Shown here piece after piece: positions 26,301-41,400 of a DNA stretch of 64,000 nt. Within the stretch, counting starts at the first letter, position 1; each line of letters begins with the position of its first letter. The stretch covers positions 58,297,585 to 58,361,584 of the forward strand of contig NC_060251.1 in assembly GCF_921293095.1 (NCBI RefSeq). The letters run 5' to 3'. The notes beneath the pieces are model-generated. The model was not told where the DNA came from and did not search any database. It saw only the letters and a program-made list of their open reading frames with translations. This DNA comes from Ischnura elegans (taxonomy: Eukaryota > Arthropoda > Insecta > Odonata > Coenagrionidae). The position numbers and the translations under genes were made by a program.

Positions 26301-29300
26301 GACCTTCCCACTCATTTATGATCATCCTCACCGCAGGAATTCGTTGTGAAGTGGTTACGTTGTCAATAGTTTTTCAATGATATATTTTGTTGCATACAAC
26401 AATTTTTTTACACTTTGAAACGAATTCTTTGTTTTGATCAGTGGGTAAGCAATTATGAAACAAAATTTTATTGTGAAAAATAACTAATTGCCTTAATTCC
26501 TTTTATTTACTAACTTTACTGTTATTTATGCTAGAAATCCGTTTAAAATTCCACAATGCTTAAAAATATGTAAGTATTTTTTTGGAAGAGTTAATTATTG
26601 AAAATCAAATGAAATATTTGGTCGAAAAACACTGGCAACGCAATAAGTTAACCGTGAATTCCTGCTAAGATAGGGTTATTGGGCTCGCATATGGGACAGG
26701 TGCCCCATTGAGTTGGGTCCCAAATCTGAGGGACGAAAATACCAGGTTAACTCCACCCCAAAAAAGAGCTCTGTACAGGAGGTTTAAAATATTCTCATAA
26801 TACTCGTAGCACTGAAAACGTTTTCCAATTGTAGGCACTGGCAGGAAAGGCCTTTACAGCAGGGGTAATTCTCATAAAATAAAAAAAAATCTTGTATGAG
26901 GCGATTCAAAGTGAAGCTGTGTTGTTTTTTGGATAATATGTAGTCGTCTGCATTGGTGTTAGTAAATGGTTAATGCTGCTGATAAAAAAACACTTTATCT
27001 ATTGGCATTGTAAATGTAGCTCTGGACGCAACCAGTGGCATGCCGAGCGGTGCCATAGAAAACAACAGTTGCACTCATCTGTGTATGTACTTAGGAAGAC
27101 GAAGAGCTCAGTTTGGTATACTATTAATAAATTAGCTGAAAATTGTATTACTGCCATTTGCTGTTATTATGTCACAAATTGCAGCACCTTGAAACAGTGG
27201 GCCTTCTGATCTCCCATCAAAATAGGCCCTGGGCCACCCACATCCTAAATTCGGCCCTGGCATGGGTATTAAACCCTTTGGAGACGGTGGGGTTCTTGCC
27301 TTAGCATGACTGCTGGACTGAGCCCCAAGAGAATTTTCCGTTCCCTCTATTCGGAGCATTTTTGCAGGACATTCGTTACGAAGGGTCTCCCTGATAATCA
27401 CACACTCCCAGCGCCAACCTTTCTTGACCCTTCATAGCGGGGACTCCGCATTATCTCGGACTCCGAGAGTAGTTGGTCTCCCTCCTTTCCAGGTTTATAA
27501 CCCTACCAGCAGCATTGGTTCGTGGTCAATCATGCTTTGTTTATATGGATTAGCTATATGGATAATTGTTGCATGTAAATTGCAGACTTTGAATTTTAAA
27601 AACACTTTTTTATTCTGAGAATTGTCAAATTTTGAATGAAGGTCTACCCTCAATATTAATGCATTTAATGCATCAACAATTTCCATGTTGATTTTTATAC
27701 TGAACTCGAGATATAAGTTAATATTTATCATAGATTTTTGTTTAAAAATTGTAAACGCTGCTTAAACAGCAAAGAATTCAATTATTAGTTTACATTTTTT
27801 GAGAAAGGAACCAATATATATTTCAAAAACTTACTGAATGAAAAATTGAATGACTGTGGTCCCTTACCACAAAGAGGGGTAATACAAGAGGAGGGATTCA
27901 GGTATACCTGGTTTCGAGGGTACGGCCTAAGTCCCGCTTTGTTGGGTCCCGAAACTAAGACTTCACGAACCCATGACCGTCATAAAAGGGAGGGAGCAAG
28001 GAAACACATACCTTAAATTTTCGGCATTCGTTCGCCTGCGTAGGAAAATCTCTGACGAAAATTTGCGGCTTTCGTCTCCGGGATCAAGAAACATCCAGCC
28101 GCATATTTTTGTCATTAGTAGCGAAAGGGTTCACGAACAACAATGCAGCAATCATCAACAGCCATGCCCTAGATAGAGGGAATCTACCCAGGCGACCAAG
28201 CCTGGACAATAAATTTATACACTCACATGCCCTGTATATGTAGGCAGGACGAGAACCGGTGACTTTTGGTTTGGCAGGCAAGGACTTTACCCAACCACCA
28301 CTGAGACCAGCCGATTCACTCATGTCATCCCATTCAATCTTGCTTTCTTTAGTCATATTAATGCATCAATTTACCTTGATGCCCACTTATTTGCTCTTAT
28401 ACATTACATATATAGCTGTTACTTCTGTTTTATCTTCTGGATTACTTTAAACTTTGAAAGTATACACATAAGTACCCTGTAAACCATAATGGTTGCCACA
28501 ACGTTGCAGCAACGTCTCACGGCAACCAACTGGGAGTTCCATGCAACGTTGTGACAACGTCTTATTTACTGCCAAACGTCCTCCGTACTACGTTTTCACA
28601 ACGTCTTCACAACATCTTTGCAACGTGACACGTAACATGATTGCAACCTGCCTGCAACCTTCTGTAAACCATATAGGTTGCCACAACGTTGCAGCTACGT
28701 CTCACGTCAACCAATTTACTGCCAAAATTTAATCCTTACTACATTTTCACAAATCTTCGCCACCAGAAGCGTAACGTGATGCAACCTTTAATAAATAATA
28801 CTTTAAATTGTGTTGTTTCAAAGGAATTTTTTTTATTATTCCTTATTTACAATTTGTTTTCCTTTCCTCCACCCTCTGATGCCTTGACTCAGCGTGCCTG
28901 AACCAGTCAATTGCCTTCTCCTTTATGTGCTTATGGCCATATTCCTTTAATGTGGGCTTGCAACGGAAAGCATCTGAAATTAAATTTTAGTAAGGATTTT
29001 AGACACAAGTAGTTTTATTGAACAGTTCCCATTTTGAAATAATTTTATAAGCACAACATACCAATAATACAGGCACACGTTCTGGTGGCACAGAACTGGA
29101 TTTTTTTAGTGTTCATTTTGGAATGGCCGAAAAATGAAAATCTCCGACCAAGGTTATTGGTAAATAGGTGGTATAACATGCCGAAAACACCCTCAGTAAT
29201 GTTATTCCGACCTCGTCTGCATAACTCTACAGTCTGAAAAATCAGAGGAATTTTTACAACACAAAAAAACTCACAAATAGCTACTTATAAAAGCCCATCA

Positions 29301-32300
29301 AACAAATGACACTCAAAAGTTTTATTTTACCAGAGCTGCGTGGAATGGCTTTTTGAGGAGTTCCACCTCCAGGGCATCAAATTCTTCCATTGTATCCATG
29401 GGGAATTTCCAGGTCAATAATAAGTCGTTGTCACTTTCATCTGGCATCTGGCAGTTCGACTTAGCTCTTTTCAAAGCCCGAATTTCCTTTAAAATTTCCA
29501 GCTGCGTCTTCTCAATTCTCTTTAAATACTGAAGAAGGTCTTCAGAAATAACTATGGGACCAGAAGAAGTTCACATTACTAAAAAATATGTATAATGTAC
29601 TTTTCATCTTATTATAAAGGTGAGAAGTAAATTGACTATAATATAATTAAGACAGTAGTTTTTATAGGGCCATTTTTAAATAAATGCACATAACCAATAA
29701 GATGTGATGGTCAGCTGATGAAATCAGCAGGATTAGTATTGCACTTGCCACCTAGGCCAGAGCCCACAAATTTGGACTTTCTATGAGGCAAAAGTTGGCA
29801 AATTACTTCATATGAAATGACAAACAAGGGTTTGAGACACGAGCTTGGCTGCATATACTTAGTCATTTTCTTGAGCGATTCTATTATCATTACTGTCATT
29901 ACATGAGATCTTGAAATGACCTCGATAATAGGGTGGTTTCCTATTATTTTTTTATTGCCTTAATCGAAAGATTATTACTCCTGGAGTACGTATTTCGCGC
30001 TTTTAGATTTTTAAATGACAACATCTATTTTTCGCGATTAAATGAAAAGTGAAAATTTTCAAGCGCGCGAAAACGCGACGCTTAAGTATGAATGTCGGGA
30101 AATATCTCCGTACGTCGTATTTCTGGTTCCCCCTCCCGCCCGGTGAGATGACCTTGAGGCGAGGCTTAGCTCTGATACGTCGCAGGATGCTAGCGGATAG
30201 CTGAGTACCTTGCTGAACGGTAGCGCTTGGCTTAAAAAAGGTTTATTAATACCTTATCAAACGAAGAAAACTTTCCGACATTAGCCAGTTTTAATAGGTG
30301 ATTATTAAGACATGTTTCCCTGAGCTCTGTGCCTCATGCTTGCATTGGTAACCTCAGACGATGCATAACTCCTATCCTCTCGTGTAGAAACTAGGTCCCT
30401 GTGACGTCATGCGGAGTGGAATCGCATGGGCGCCAATCTGGCCTTTTTCAAATGAGGATAAAATTTGACCCTTGCCATTCGTCTAAACCGGTATTTCAAA
30501 AACCAAATAATTTGTGTATTATGAATACACTAATGGTGGGTAACGAATCGCAATCAATGCCTTTCGTTTTCTTTGATGAAGGAAACTACCCTATTAAGGC
30601 GTAAGCAGTTAATTTTCCCACAAAATCCACCTGATAAATTTAAGGCTGGAGAGTGGTTTCTTTACTTTAGAGAAATAAAAGTTTAGTCCAAATGTTAATG
30701 AAATAAGCAAGCACAACAATAATTGAATGTCATTCAAAGAAAACAGAAATTATCTCATGATATTTTTTAGAACAGCCAATCTTGAAAATCATAGGAATGG
30801 TAATAAAAATAATCGAATGCTAGGGTTGTATTGAAAGGGAGAGTACTAACTTTGAATACAACCCAAGAGACTAGAGAGCATAATTCAATTCTGGGCGCTG
30901 GACAGCACAAAATAACAAAAGTAATGTCCTTGCAAGAATTTCAACAAAATGCAAGGATGGATTGCTGATAGCTCTCAAGGAAAATACCTAAGCTACTGAC
31001 ATATGTTGGTCTCATTGAAGTATTTAATTAATAGAAATTTGAAAACTTTACTTACAGCTTAGAGCCGAATGAATGTGTGTCTGTCCAAACTTTATGTTCC
31101 CTTTAAGGCCTTCCAATAAATAATATTTTGCAATATCATCTAAGAATGATGCTCTCAACCCACGCCTTGTTGCATCTGGTGGAGTAGAACCCCCAACTCT
31201 TTTCAAAAAATCAATCTGAAATAAAAATTATTATATTAGGGATAATTCATTGAACCAAAGGCTGTACACATCCACTATGACAATTTTACATGAAGAATAC
31301 TGGGTGTCCCATTTATCTTGATCACCCGAAATAACTTTTTGTCCAGATGGAAATTCAAAAATGTGTCAAGCAAATGTTCATTAGCCGTCAGGGGGACATT
31401 AATTAGCATGATTGACTTCCTTGTAGCTTTATTATTTACAAAGATATGAACAGCGGTATGTCTTTTTAAAATGGCACCCTATATTTTTTATTTGGCAGTT
31501 CATTTCCTCTCCTAAAGACTTATTCAAAAATGTAGCACAGTGGACCATTAACATAAACACAGTGTTATGAAAAATGTCTGACTCAATAGCACTTAGTGCA
31601 GGTAGGCGGGTATTGGAACTACTCCACCAGTCATTCATAAAAAATATAGGGTGTCATTTAAAAAAGACATACCACTCTTCAAATCTTTGTAGAAACAAAG
31701 ATACAAGGAAGGCAGTCATGCTGATTAATGTCCCCCTGAGGGCTTATGAACATTTGCTTGACACATTTTTGAACTTCCATCTGAACAAAAAGTTATTTCG
31801 GGTGGTCAAGATAAATGGGATACCCTGCATAATTGGAATCAAGATCAAACAGTCTGCTTGCTTAGAAGAAAACAATATTAGGGAGCCAACGCATCTCAAA
31901 GTCTTTGATCACTCTATTGAAAAGTGCTTCAAGCAAACATAAAGGAAGATGAATCGAAACCATTTCCTATACTGGGCTGGGTATTAATAATATTACCACA
32001 GATAAACTGATATTCACTTTATCATTATGGCCCAATGTTTTTATCCCTGAGTAATGTGCACAAATAGACTTGCCTCCAACAAATCAAATCCCATTACTTA
32101 TCCCCTCTTTAACAAAATCACAGTGACATCTTTAACTACAAAAAATTATCAAAAATGAGACACAAAATTGAAATGTTTTCTTTTAATAGCAATTACCTGA
32201 TTGGAACTTTGATCCAAAACTTTTTACATCATCATGAAGATGTTTTTGACATGAAGCTACACTTAAACCCACTACACCTAAATGAAAATTAAACACTATA

Positions 32301-35300
32301 AAAAATGTAAATAACTTTAAATGAATGCGATGGTGGTTGGCGTAACATGGTGAAACTCCTTCATGATGCACAAAGGTTAAGAAAACACTTAGCTGTTTCA
32401 CAAAATAAAATATATTGCGAACGGTTTCGATACAGCGTATCATCATCTGGCCTGATGATGATACGCTGTATCGAAACCGGTCGCAATATATTTTATTTTG
32501 TGAAACAGCTAAGTGTTTTCTTAACCTTTGTGAACTTTAAATGACTCAATAAATAGTAAAGCCGAGAAGTTTTTCTTCATAATCCTCCCACACTACGGTG
32601 ATGCAATGCGTCAAGCATTAAAATAAATTTAAGTTTATGCATATGCAATGTTTTTCAATCCACAGAAGATGGATTGACTGAGCTGTCTCAGGAAGTGTGA
32701 GAAGGTTGAAAATATTAAGAATATGCTTCATTTAAAATAAAAATGTTGCAATAAGCAACACTTCTACTTACCCAGATTCTGATGAAGGAAGCAAAAGTAG
32801 AACTTCAGCGGTTGATAAACTTTTGTTGGAGAAGTTTCGCAAACATAACACTACAAAATTACGTAGTAACAGTAGATGATTGCCTAGGTGCTGGTGAAAC
32901 AAGTAAAAGAAGAACTTAAGAGGCTGATATGCTTCGGCAGGATCAATTCCGCTCACGAAGAACACAACACAGTTCACGTAACATTATTAATGTGCACATG
33001 AATACGACAACGGCCATGGCCGTTGTGGCCGTTGGATTCGGTTGGATTTGAAAGTGGTAATGCGCATGTGCGTATTTGTTTTGTTTTTCTCTCGATGGAA
33101 ATCGACTATTGGTGGAATCGACCATCGATGGTATCCACAATCGATAGCTCGACATCGCGGGCGGGAGTCTAAATCTTGGTATCCGAAAAATTAAGTTTCG
33201 CCTTATGACTTGAGGAATAAATCCCACTGGGAAATATATCTTTTTTGTATCATCGCCTTAGTAGATTAAAAAGCACGAGTGAAATCACATTTCGAAGAAC
33301 ATTCTTCTTTATGAAACGAAGAAAACTTATCATGGTAGGATTTTTTTTACATCTTAAGGGAATTGATTGATTTTTTAATTAATCTGCATTTCGTAGCACC
33401 CCAGGTGGACGGCGTTCTTGGGTGTTCCGAAAAGAAATGATGAAACACACTGTAACAACTGTGACTCAGTTATTACATACACAACAGCCTACTGTCAAAA
33501 TATATACCGCGAATATCCCACAATGGTTCGCAATGTCTCTGGGACGAAATATGAATATAAGGGATCAAAATAGGATATTCCAGGAATATCCTCTGCTGTG
33601 TGGGTACCTATTCTTTTAGCTCAATATTTTCATATTTTAATGAATGAGGGAAAATTGTTGTAAGGACGTTGCAAAGCAACCTGTCTGCAACGTTGCAAAG
33701 AGACCTCAACAGCCCTGCAACCTCTGCAACCTCGTGCAACCTGACTGCAACGTTGCTGCAACTCATTGTGTTTACAGGGTATTCAAGACTTTACTACTGT
33801 TTTAAACTCCTTTTATTAACAACGGAACTCAAGACACCATTACACAGGTTAACACTCAACCTGACTCAACAGCTCTGACCGCCTTCCAGTCAGGGGTACC
33901 AACCTTACATTGATGTCAGTTACCAATCTATAACAACTTCTCCTCGGGTTGAATTTAATTGTTCTCCTTTCTATGCAATGTATTCAAATTTATCTTACAC
34001 AAAGGGTTTTTTTTTACCCATTTGATACATATTTTATATCATACAAGAGGCTATTGATAATCCACAAAGACAAAAAGAGGCCTCTCAAGTTTGCAGACTC
34101 TTTCTTCCCTTTCTGTTCTCATCATAAGAAAAAGCTGAGAAATGTATTATAACTTACTAATCATAAACTATTTTCAATTTTAAGACTTATTGTAATTTAA
34201 GGTAAGGAAAAGAAAATCTACTTGTAATGCTTTGATAAACTGTAGTTAATCTTAATTATCTATCTATACATGGTAACGGATACAGAAAAAACTTAAGGGG
34301 AGCGGTACAAAAGATATCTTTAGCTACCTATACGTTTATCGTAATGAAAAATAATCACGTTACAAGCAAAGTTTAAGAAAGTTTTATTTAAAATGACCAT
34401 ACACATAAACAAGAAAATGCTGTCTTATGATATAAAAGCATTAAAATTGTGGTTCTGCAATGGTTGGCAATATGGACGGACCTGCAAGGGAGGGGCATGT
34501 GCCCCCTTTACGTATCCGCCACTGTCTGTATGTATAAAGGAGGATGTCTGTTTGTTTGCCCGCTATGCATTTCCATATGGCAGCATGGATTGAAACCAAA
34601 ATTAGTATGTAAGTGGACCTCATGCTCCCAAAGCTCAAAGTGTTACTTTTGGTTGTGTCCAACATGTCCTTTTTGTCTTTTTTCATTACCGTTTGTTAAG
34701 TCACGTCACACAACTTCTGTGGTTGGATATCTTGCAGGGTAGGCACACTTCTTCACTCTCTCAAAGGGAAAACATAATTCAAATAATACAACTCTTATCT
34801 ATTAATCCTCTCGGTGCAAACCTTTTTGCTGGGGTATAAGTTCACAAGATGTTTTTGGTTTACACACCTATGGGTGCACATAGTAATCAATGTTTCAATG
34901 ATGTGGAGTGGGATATAAGCTGACGGTGTCCATTATGTATATGGAAATAGTTTTTTCAATTGTTTGCTGTTCAGTGCGCCAAAAAATCGTGTATCATGGC
35001 CATAAATTCCAAGCTCCAAGTTTCCCACTCCTCTGGGTACTATCTTTCCCTAGCAATTCCAGATGGCCTGCTAGTAAACTGTATAATTATAGAACAAAAC
35101 CATTGGGCACATCCATGGGTAGAGAGAACTCAAAGCACTACCAAAACAGTTGTGGAATTTCCCCCAAATGCACCCCCTACAGCTCAGTGTGAGCACTCAA
35201 TATCTTGGAGCGTTCTCTTGGACTGCTAGTAGCATAGTGACCTGCTCCCATACTGAGAAAGATCTCAGAGGGCTAACTCCCCCTTAATGGACCTAATTTC

Positions 35301-38183: not shown

Positions 38184-38466
38184 GTAAGTTTGCATGTGGC
38201 TCTATTATTGCAATCCAGATACGTTCATAGATTATTTTCATCTTTGTGAAGTTAAAATATTCATTAAAAGGGGATTGTAGTGCATTAGGTAAAATTAGGA
38301 TTAGTTCATTGTCAAGATCTTGCGGATGAATTCGGATTCATGATGCTTAACCTTTCGGGCCCCTTTCCTTTCATGCTCATCATGTGTACCTCAGACAAAA
38401 ATATCGTTGCTAATATTATCTAATATCAGAGGATTTATCGGCTTCTTATTCTTCCAGGGTATCGAA

Positions 38467-41400
38467 ATGGCGGACACAGAGAAGAAGGCTACGAAAACAA
38501 AGTCTTCAGATAAGAAGAAAGCTACCGAAGAAAAGAAGGAAAGCATAGAGAAACCCACAACTCCCAGACTGAAGAAAAGGCCCCGTAAACGTCATGGACG
38601 TTTGTACGCGAAGGCTGTGTTTACGGGTTACAAGCGTGGACTCCGCAATCAGCATGAAAATACCGCCTTGTTAAAGGTGGATGGGTGCAACTCTAAAGCA
38701 GAAAGTTGGTTTTACGTCGGCAAACGTTGTGTCTATGTTTACAAGGTATGTCTTACGTATTATTTCCCTCTTCATTGCGTGTTCTCCGTTTTATTTGAGC
38801 CATGTTATCAAGGGCGCGTTTTGTTTCTTATTGGAGAAGTAACAGAGAAGTTAAGATCCGTTCGTCCGCCCGTCTGAAAGAGTGCATTCACAGTAGACCT
38901 AAGGGTGATGCCGTCGGGGTCAGGATTTTTTTTTCAATATTCGACTCCTTGGATATTTCCACTCTGTATTATTTTATTGCGTTATATATCATTACGTCTG
39001 ATGTCTGTCTCAGGATAATACCTCGGGTGTGCTGCAAAATTTGGCCTGCTTCCTTATGCCAATTCATTCTTTCTTTGACACGATTACCGAGGATGCGTAT
39101 GCCATACGCAGATTTCTGGGGCATTTCACCCCAAATTAGACGGGAATGTCGGGTGACCATCGAAGATTTCCTTATATTTAGGAATGTGAAGGAGATGAGT
39201 TATGATAACTTCATTGAAGCTCTGAACTTACCCACTAAAATATGAACCTTGCAACATAGTAGCTTCGTACCCATGGAGAGAAATATGGAAATCATTGACA
39301 TGGTAAAGCTATGTAACCAAAGCACTCGGAGAAGTAATCCTAGTTGCTGTGAAGAAAATACTAAATGCACGGTTTGGAAGTAATTCTAAACGATTGTAAA
39401 CAAATACTTATTTAAACAATAATTATTGGAAATTATTTGAGTAGTTTGATTTGGATTATCTATTAAAGGTATTCATTATTTTCAAGTCCTCATAGTTGCT
39501 AGTGTTATGTGTTTTATAGGTTTAATTTGTGCATGTGCAACAAGTAGAAGGCAATAATGGAAAAGGAAGACCCCGGACAAAATATATGGAACAAGTAAAG
39601 AGAGATGTGAAAGAGGAGAAATACGTAGGTGTGAAACGATTAGCTGATTGGAGAACTGAGTGGAGAGCTGCGTCAAACCAATCCTAGGATTGTTGACCAG
39701 TGATGATGATGATGATGATGGTTTGGGGGAAAAAAGAATAAACTTCAACATCTTGCGCTGGGAAAACCTCAGATCTTTCTTCTGGTCATACAATTGTTTA
39801 TCCAGTCAGGTTTCGAAATAAATATTTGTTCATTTCTCAATAAAAAATAAACTAAGAATTGAATTATTTGTCTTTTGAGTAGCGTTTACAATTTTTAAAC
39901 AAAATTCTACGATAAGTATTAACTTGTATCTCGAGTTATGTGTAAAAATCAACATGGAAAATGTTGCTGCGTTAAATGCGTTAATATTGGCCTTAGAACT
40001 TCGATTACAATTTGACAAGCTTAGAAAAAAATGAGGAATTCAATTCAAAGTCTGCAATTTATGTGCAAGCAACAATTATCCATTTGCTAAATATATATAA
40101 GCAATACATAAGTTGACTGCGAACCAAAAGGCATGGTCGTAAACCCAGAAAGAAGGGAGCACAACTACTCTCGGAGTCCGAGATAATGCGAAGTCCCAGC
40201 GTGGAGGGGTCGAAAAAGGTTCAGCGAGACCCTTCTTAACGAATGCCCTCCAAAAATGCTCCGTACCACGAGAAGGAAGTCTCTTGGGGCTCAGTACAGC
40301 AGTCATGCTAAGACGAAAACTCCGCCGTCTCGAAAGGGTTAAGGAATGTATATTAATTTCCATATTAGATATAGGTAGTGTCCTTTGACATCAGGGAATA
40401 TATTTTTGTTGAATAATGGGAAAGTCTGTGGGCTGGTAAAATCTTGATGTGCTTTTGCAACTTTTTTAATTGCCATCGCCTTAGTTCAGACTTTCACATT
40501 CATTGGCAAAAATTTGTCTCGGAATGAGGAACTTGCATGGGTCGTAGATTGCCCTAAAAACTATTTTGAATAAGTCAAATGGATACATAAGCTCGCGAAA
40601 ATACCTTCAGTTTCTCCATTCAACATCAAAATAAATAAAAAAATTGCATTTAAAATCGAGAAAAATTTCTCTGAGCCGACCACTGCACGAAGACACCCGA
40701 GCGTTGCCGAGGCCAGGCGTGACGTCATAGGTGCCTAAACAACCGTAGGGAGTAGGAAAATACGCTGCGCGCATGGTGTAAAATTTGTTTTGAGGGAGTA
40801 TTTAGCCGCTCATCGTCACTTTATTTTGTTCTGTTATTCTTAGGCAAGTTTTCCTATTGCTATTGTGCCTAGATTATTACTTGGGTTTTAGTGATAAGAA
40901 AAATGGATGATAACGTTGCCACTCGTTCGAATAGTACACCTGAAATTCATCTATATCTACATAATACCCCGCAAGCCGCCTAAAAGGCGTGTGGCATGGG
41001 GTGTTAGGACACCAGCCTTTTTTTAGGACACCAAAAATTGATGCCACGACCCTCATGGAATTTGTTAAGACAAATTATTGCTATACGTCGGCGGCAAATC
41101 GAGTTGTAAAAGAAACTTGTAATACTGGAGGATAACGATCGTAAGCTGTGCTGTTGACATTAGAGTAAGCTGTGCTGTTGAATTTTGCAACACCGAATTA
41201 ACGGAGAAGGTAGTCCTATCCGTCCTACGGGACGAATTCACAGCAAAACAGTCTGCACACAATCCACATGTGAGATCGCGAATCGGTTCCGCTGCCAACA
41301 CACACACAAGCTATAACCTATTTCAATAATATAGGTAAATCCATAAACAATATACTAGCATATACCATAAAAATATAGTGGGAAATAGACAAATACTCTT

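Follow-up and report, generated by a model that had tools for sequence, protein, structure and literature searches.

Does a gene with DUF4806-like coding sequence, enclosed by the inverted ends of a transposon, serve that transposon? The question is raised by an element of 5305 bp from Ischnura elegans (NCBI RefSeq assembly GCF_921293095.1, contig NC_060251.1). It lies within positions 58,297,585 to 58,361,584 of the forward strand, a stretch of 64,000 nucleotides which was analysed as a whole and is hereafter called the window. In this element, a first-pass annotation made from the letters alone had described inverted ends, a flanking TA, subterminal arrays and four phase-consistent exons, and all of these are present (Table 1). 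The element probably belongs, as a non-autonomous copy that moved recently, to a cut-and-paste family with two genes, related to CACTA (En/Spm) and similar to the TRC elements of animals. In complete members, a first open reading frame (ORF1) is followed by the DUF4806 gene (ORF2), whose product would take the role of TnpA as a binder of the element ends.

Copies of the family and origin of the window class

The genome (1.72 Gb) was searched with the left 226 bp of the window copy; 40 matches were scored out of 115 candidates, and 33 of these 40 reached the top score. The copies and loci fetched from the genome are labelled with L-numbers (L016, L033 and so on). A search for the end pattern, with up to three mismatches, yielded 94 right ends and 91 left ends, and the reversed control pattern gave no match. 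Three left-end rows corresponded to internal repeats beside a true end and were set aside. For 81 of the remaining 88 terminal left ends, a right end was found within 25 kb; seven were unpaired. The first-pass annotation had stated that its reading would fall if the ends were not repeated together elsewhere, and these pairs speak against such a refutation.

The end-to-end spacing was 4.0-4.7 kb in 39 cases, below 1.3 kb in 15 and 7.13 kb in four, the others being scattered, and the same ends flank classes of 4.4 kb, 7.13 kb, 1.06 kb and 0.7 kb. Most copies measure 4.42-4.48 kb; the window copy is of this 4.4 kb type, enlarged by two extra inserts. Over long blocks, the identity of other copies to the window copy is about 98.5-99.5% (about 92.5-96% in the block 32533-33756). 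This high identity among copies points to recent movement.

In 34 of the 36 copies with both ends available, the 2-bp flanks are identical, whereas 2000 random re-pairings gave a mean of 5.4 such copies and a maximum of 13. Twelve kinds of dinucleotide were observed (TT 9, AT 6, TA 5, GA 3, AC 2, AA 2, TG 2, and a single copy for each of five more). The flanks are the same in both copies with TG, which probably represent a single insertion that was then duplicated; the two exceptions, L031 and L050, show a 3-bp match at their flanks. Since 12 different dinucleotides are duplicated among the 34 copies, the TA of the window copy is incidental, and the idea of TA as a specific target had to be abandoned. 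The TA flanks of the window copy would suit an element of the Tc1/mariner type; this type, or any other TA-specific system, was ruled out by the presence of TA at only 5 of the 36 copies. Together with the resemblance of ORF1 to RAG1 and Transib described below, this makes a Tc1/mariner origin almost inconceivable.

The first 237 bp and the last 1.26 kb of the 4.4 kb class belong to the 7.13 kb family: between the 7.13 kb copy L033 and one 4.4 kb copy, the first 237 bp are 98% and the last 1.29 kb 92% identical. The intervening segment of about 2.9 kb (positions 251-3163 of L016) has no match in the 7.13 kb element; its identity to the locus L057, which lies on a different contig, is about 96%. 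In the 4.4 kb examined, L057 has no match to the 7.13 kb element; it contains a DUF4806-like exon of its own and, as read by eye, a different last exon, and this exon pair, once joined, gave no Pfam match. Because the 7.13 kb element contains no counterpart of this middle 2.9 kb, the view that the window class arose by simple internal deletion was rejected. Such a deletion does account for the copies of 1.06 kb and 0.7 kb that were compared (L042, L046, L049; L044), which derive from the 7.13 kb form. The window exon 31056-31215 belongs to the foreign piece and the other three exons to the ORF2 of the family. As judged from sequence, the window copy is a non-autonomous chimera, in which the ends and last three DUF4806 exons of the family surround 2.9 kb shared with another DUF4806-like locus. 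The capture of a host gene, which the first-pass annotation had offered as an alternative, was thus partly right, in an unexpected form.

L057 (C3:1521800-1526200) and L056 (C15:1578500-1582500) form a family of DUF4806-like fragments that share the foreign middle of the window class.

The four minus-strand exons of the window copy are open, with GT/AG borders and consistent phases (read by eye). Their spliced product of 227 residues matched PF16064 (DUF4806) with 21.6 bits (E 2.7e-4). The DUF4806-like nature of the spliced frame was thereby recovered, but below the curated cut-off of 25 bits and with a first exon of different origin. Exons searched individually gave no DUF4806 match, a start codon of this frame was not found, and no other protein-coding frame was recognised in the window copy. 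Among 23 members of the 4.4 kb class, L016 as the reference being one of them, 18 have all four exons at full length and ungapped, a count that scores length and gaps and not stop codons. Among the exceptions, L018, L019, L026 and L028 are gapped and L048 has a partial exon; a stop codon lies within the first exon of L017 and of L019. The chimeric frame is truncated and probably makes no working ORF2.

ORF1 and the DUF4806 gene downstream of it

The 4.4 kb copies compared have no room for ORF1, and their sequence is accounted for without it. The first-pass annotation had considered DUF4806 as the only protein of the element; this is true only of the non-autonomous class, a transposase frame being present in the 7.13 kb copies, whose ends are the same. 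The four copies of this length (L033-L036) all encode an uninterrupted ORF1, 99-100% identical among them, of 695 codons from stop to stop and 668 residues from the first methionine (L033). A single-gene element, with the DUF4806 protein itself as transposase, would agree with the lack of another recognised frame in the window copy and with the 4.4 kb copies into which no ORF1 fits; it is nevertheless highly improbable, because relatives with the same ends carry a separate DDE protein matching RAG1 and Transib.

The ORF1 proteins of L053, L054 and L055 are 62, 40 and 37% identical to that of L033, and that of L058 34%. In the four families L033, L053, L054 and L055, residues D180, D258, C277xxC280, H475xxxH479 and E499 are invariant, in agreement with the DDE + C(2)C + H(3)H signature stated for transposases of the CMCT clade in PMC12730594. 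An AlphaFold model built from the alignment of the four sequences shows a strand with D180, two strands, a helix, a strand with D258, a helix and a later helix with E499, which is the RNase H order. Foldseek comparison of this model with the PDB gave four matches at E <= 0.001, namely three RAG1 chains and HzTransib (E 2.3e-7 to 1.1e-4), with low TM-scores on a low-confidence model. The first-pass annotation had proposed to look for an RNase H-like or other nuclease fold in the DUF4806 protein; the nuclease-like fold match belongs to ORF1 instead. In Pfam, DUF4218 was matched by all four ORF1 proteins (best E 3.5e-6; L033 at 0.014, below the cut-off) and DUF1258 by one of the four, and an NCBIfam search gave no match. 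Sequence and model together indicate that ORF1 is likely a DDE transposase of RAG1/Transib type.

More than 700 ORF1 candidates were seen in the genome at first look, and many divergent scored loci have uninterrupted frames of about 650-740 codons, which suggests a large population of such elements.

In L033, L053, L054 and L055, the first recognised exon of ORF2 lies about 90-370 bp 3' of ORF1 on the same strand and begins near the residues WVVVEF (WLVAEM in L055). In the predicted gene models, this exon is followed by one for a charged linker and one with a coiled-coil-like stretch; the DUF4806 domain comes next, interrupted by an intron, and a last exon closes the gene. The predicted protein has a conserved N-terminal domain, with DUF4806 at its C-terminus. 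Intron positions and phases agree across the four families compared, in predicted models with borders set by eye. No start exon of ORF2 was found upstream of ORF1, where the DNA match between L033 and L053 is limited to the terminal repeat. The spliced C-terminal parts of L033, L053, L054 and L055 matched PF16064 with 25.6, 43.6, 33.1 and 32.0 bits. Downstream of the ORF1 of L058, ORF2 was recognised from MEFAIVKF onward (29.6 bits), so that the PF16064 cut-off is passed by all five spliced ORF2 models of ORF1-bearing elements, just barely by L033. A PF16064 profile search of the genome gave no match; control genomes were likewise without match.

The first exon of ORF2 (exon A), in its L054 and L055 versions, was also used as a query against the genome and gave 81 and 57 matches, respectively, at E <= 10. 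Exon A was found at most 1.5 kb downstream of ORF1, on the same strand, at 42 of 64 scored ORF1 loci, and within 6 kb at 44; the nearest match within 6 kb was never upstream or on the opposite strand. These comparisons demonstrate, at the level of sequence, the pairing of ORF1 with ORF2 in several divergent families, the transposases of which are 34-62% identical. The suggestion that DUF4806 is part of a transposition system gains support from this arrangement, behind a DDE transposase, although the role itself is one that we infer.

In addition, the divergence of the last three DUF4806 exons was compared between L016 (4.4 kb) and L033 (7.13 kb). The nonsynonymous divergence (dN) was 0.045 and the synonymous divergence (dS) 0.252, a dN/dS ratio of 0.18. 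As dN is far below dS, this part of ORF2 was mostly kept by selection while the lineages diverged; the ratio does not speak to the 4.4 kb class after its formation.

Two further observations concern the first exon. Seven copies of it, about 1.2 kb apart, form a tandem array of an ORF2 fragment at C12:65428642-65436039. Seven equally scoring matches were recorded at C9:115251579, C19:120090208, C19:122113493, C1:1655887, C5:719159, C8:116909639 and C7:117217367; several of these lie within 2 Mb of contig ends and could be subtelomeric duplications or free-standing genes.

Subterminal words and the proposed role of the ORF2 protein

Repeat words were counted in 700 terminal bases and in the interior of each element, with up to one mismatch and on both strands, so that one site may count twice. 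The word TTGCAACGTT occurred 8 times in the terminal bases of the window copy against once in 4605 interior bases, and 12 times against once in 6432 bases in L033. In L053, the stretch of which appears to end just short of one terminus, there were six terminal and no interior occurrences. L055, which ends in CCCAGATAGC and is flanked by TT on both sides, has no TTGCAACGTT; instead, TTGTAATACA was counted 15 times in its ends and once in 7944 interior bases. For L054, no terminal repeats of its own turned up in the stretch examined. A TnpA-like system would be expected to combine conserved CCC tips, subterminal words that vary by family and a conserved second gene, as is seen here.

By analogy with TnpA in plants, we infer that ORF2 would bind the repeated words which are specific to its family and lie in the subterminal 200-350 bp, would be needed for movement, and would bring both ends together and/or control the promoter of the element. 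ORF1 would cut at the CCC ends and insert the element with a duplication of 2 bp, rarely 3 bp. Since the window copy keeps its ends and arrays, it could be mobilised in trans.

Alternatively, the DUF4806 protein might act on chromatin or on the host, for instance as an anti-silencing factor or a self-repressor, and not in end recognition. Such functions have precedents: fungal transposons carry TET/JBP genes, which according to PMC12730594 likely aid escape from silencing, and plant TnpA is described as also regulating a promoter (PMC1636069). However, each end is densely set with subterminal words, and the word of the L033 family is not that of the L055 family. This is expected if a protein encoded by the element reads both ends, whereas promoter control alone would need only one of them; a chromatin or host function is therefore considered rather unlikely.

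The end-binding role finds its model in plant CACTA elements, in which TnpA binds subterminal repeats and TnpD is the transposase (PMC8195511). The present family resembles En/Spm in having one gene for a transposase and another, with several exons, for a second protein, and further in its subterminal repeats and its many non-autonomous or gene-capture derivatives. It differs by CCC ends with 2-bp duplications, in place of CACTA ends with 3-bp duplications, and by a second protein with DUF4806 in place of Transposase_24. The transposase frame of En/Spm is located within an intron of the second gene.

Animal TRC elements are marked by CCC tips together with 2-bp duplications (PMC1636069), and both features were found here. 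According to the same source, they include SmTRC1 of Schistosoma mansoni and relatives in Tribolium (ends CCCTAGTAGC) and Aedes (ends CCCAGTCAAC); Spongebob of Hydra (ends CCCAGCCAAC) was filed as TRC on its CCC ends and 2-bp duplication (PMC4298943). SmTRC1 also resembles the present elements by a large transposase frame accompanied by extra spliced products from 3' exons, and the short TRC protein was predicted by its describers in 2006 to be a TNPA-like DNA binder (PMC1636069). In that account, SmTRC-PrA/PrB had no similarity to proteins of other animal or fungal elements, nor between species, whereas the second protein here is recognisable as DUF4806 across families.

The CMCT clade, as listed in PMC12730594, comprises EnSpm, Mirage, Chapaev, Transib/RAG1, Plavaka, ESTA and Lanisha. 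RAG1 and Transib were the only PDB fold matches of ORF1 at the threshold used, and the target duplications (2 bp in 34 of 36 copies, with a 3-bp match in the other two) lie within the 2 to 5 bp given for the clade. Its ends are CA..TG 'in most cases', which is not strictly defining, and CCC..GGG in the present family. A further difference is that a PDB sequence search with ORF1 gave nothing useful (uricases at E about 1).

Several observations weigh against the reading of ORF2 as an end binder paired with a DDE transposase. Concerning ORF1, the structural model is weak (mean predicted local distance difference test, pLDDT, 49; predicted template modelling score, pTM, 0.32), and Transposase_21 (PF02992), which serves as a criterion for the main ORF of TRC elements, was not found at E <= 1 in any of the four ORF1 proteins. 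For the latter reason, the family is called TRC-like and not TRC. Concerning ORF2, neither L033 nor L053 yielded a start codon, a PDB search by sequence gave no match and no BEN match was obtained for its models in Pfam; the link of DUF4806 to the BEN DNA-binding domain comes from a citing statement in PMC11075544. Repeat words were compared in three families, two of which have a word in common. The exon A search was run at a permissive threshold, and 20 of the 64 scored ORF1 loci had no exon A match within 6 kb. One of these 20 is L058, which has an ORF2, so that at least this miss reflects a limit of the queries. In the reverse direction, a scored ORF1 was located within 4 kb upstream for only 19 of the 53 exon A matches at E <= 1e-3, and free-standing DUF4806 genes may thus exist; as 75 ORF1 loci of the more than 700 candidates were used, the figure gives no share of DUF4806 genes that stand alone.

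The 34 good exon A matches left without a scored transposase within this distance, and the segment which the window class has in common with another DUF4806-like locus, would both fit a passenger, that is, a gene of the host which one ancestral element took up and which has been carried along without any role. But ORF2 has stayed open, and its order, strand and intron positions (the latter in the four families compared) have been kept beside transposases 34-62% identical; moreover, decay would be expected of a passenger, and the dN/dS ratio between two family copies is 0.18. A passenger gene is accordingly judged improbable, and the end-binding role of ORF2 is retained as the probable one.

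Features of the window and wider place of DUF4806

Table 1. Positions of the transposon copy and its parts in the window
Feature	Position	Strand	Remark
Whole non-autonomous transposon copy	28475..33779		Both ends recur together in the genome; 5305 bp including two extra inserts
Left target duplication, TA	28473..28474		Sequence read
Right target duplication, TA	33780..33781		Sequence read
Left terminal inverted repeat, CCCTGTAAAC	28475..28484	+	Sequence read
Right terminal inverted repeat, plus-strand letters GTTTACAGGG, minus strand reads CCCTGTAAAC	33770..33779	-	
Left subterminal array, GCAACGTTGC-like words	28491..28714		Borders approximate
Right subterminal array, GCAACGTTGC-like words	33666..33765		Borders approximate
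First recognisable exon, half a DUF4806-like domain, within the foreign middle segment	31056..31215	-	
Exon with coiled-coil-like stretch and DUF4806 start, from the family's own ORF2	29331..29551	-	
Exon with the remainder of the DUF4806 domain	29062..29233	-	
Last exon, including stop codon	28843..28973	-	
Foreign middle segment, including two extra inserts	29735..33590		Borders approximate, transferred from copy L016
Extra insert with inverted ends AGGGTGGTTTCCT	29930..30592		Not in other copies compared
Extra insert with palindrome (82-nt arms, 98% complementary)	32325..32532		Not in other copies compared; borders approximate
Internal inverted-repeat insert	31297..31830		Shared with L057 and with 4.4 kb copies compared

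The first of the two extra inserts is perhaps a miniature inverted-repeat transposable element (MITE); pieces similar to it were seen by eye twice in L011. The near-perfect palindrome of the second occupies positions 32369-32532, without a spacer between its arms. Outside the element, an exon of a host ribosomal protein gene lies at 38344-38877 on the plus strand (PF01247 Ribosomal_L35Ae, E 2.3e-18).

In the literature naming DUF4806, searched outside Repbase and subscription journals, no link of the domain to a transposon was found, and within the same scope no paper was found that combines a BEN domain, a transposase and the term transposon-encoded. Here, the domain is situated within a transposon, with the window frame itself under the PF16064 cut-off. 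Elements of this type were known before; what appears to be new, within the literature searched, is a DUF4806 gene as their conserved second component. In the second-protein position, DUF4806 may fill a gap left in 2006, when a TnpA-like role was predicted and, as related in PMC1636069, no protein common to the species was found.

A broader proposal can be made more tentatively, its chances being somewhat short of even. Across animal CACTA-related transposons in general, DUF4806 might be the element-encoded protein that recognises the ends, doing the work of plant TnpA with a fold that is BEN-like and not related to it; from one family to the next, the protein would change in step with the subterminal repeats, and many annotated animal DUF4806 genes would be, or would descend from, transposon genes. 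Two Hydra genomes are tabulated with 69 and 54 DUF4806 domains, against 0-6 in five other species (PMC7642931), and 441 copies of a CCC-ended TRC element of Hydra are on record (PMC4298943). The domain is also reported as enriched in a beetle (PMC13270666). Carriage by transposons may explain both the abundance in Hydra and the enrichment in the beetle. These results suggest that DUF4806, an uncharacterised domain, gains a testable job, that of helping elements to recognise their own ends; for annotators, they mean that DUF4806 genes may be transposon genes.

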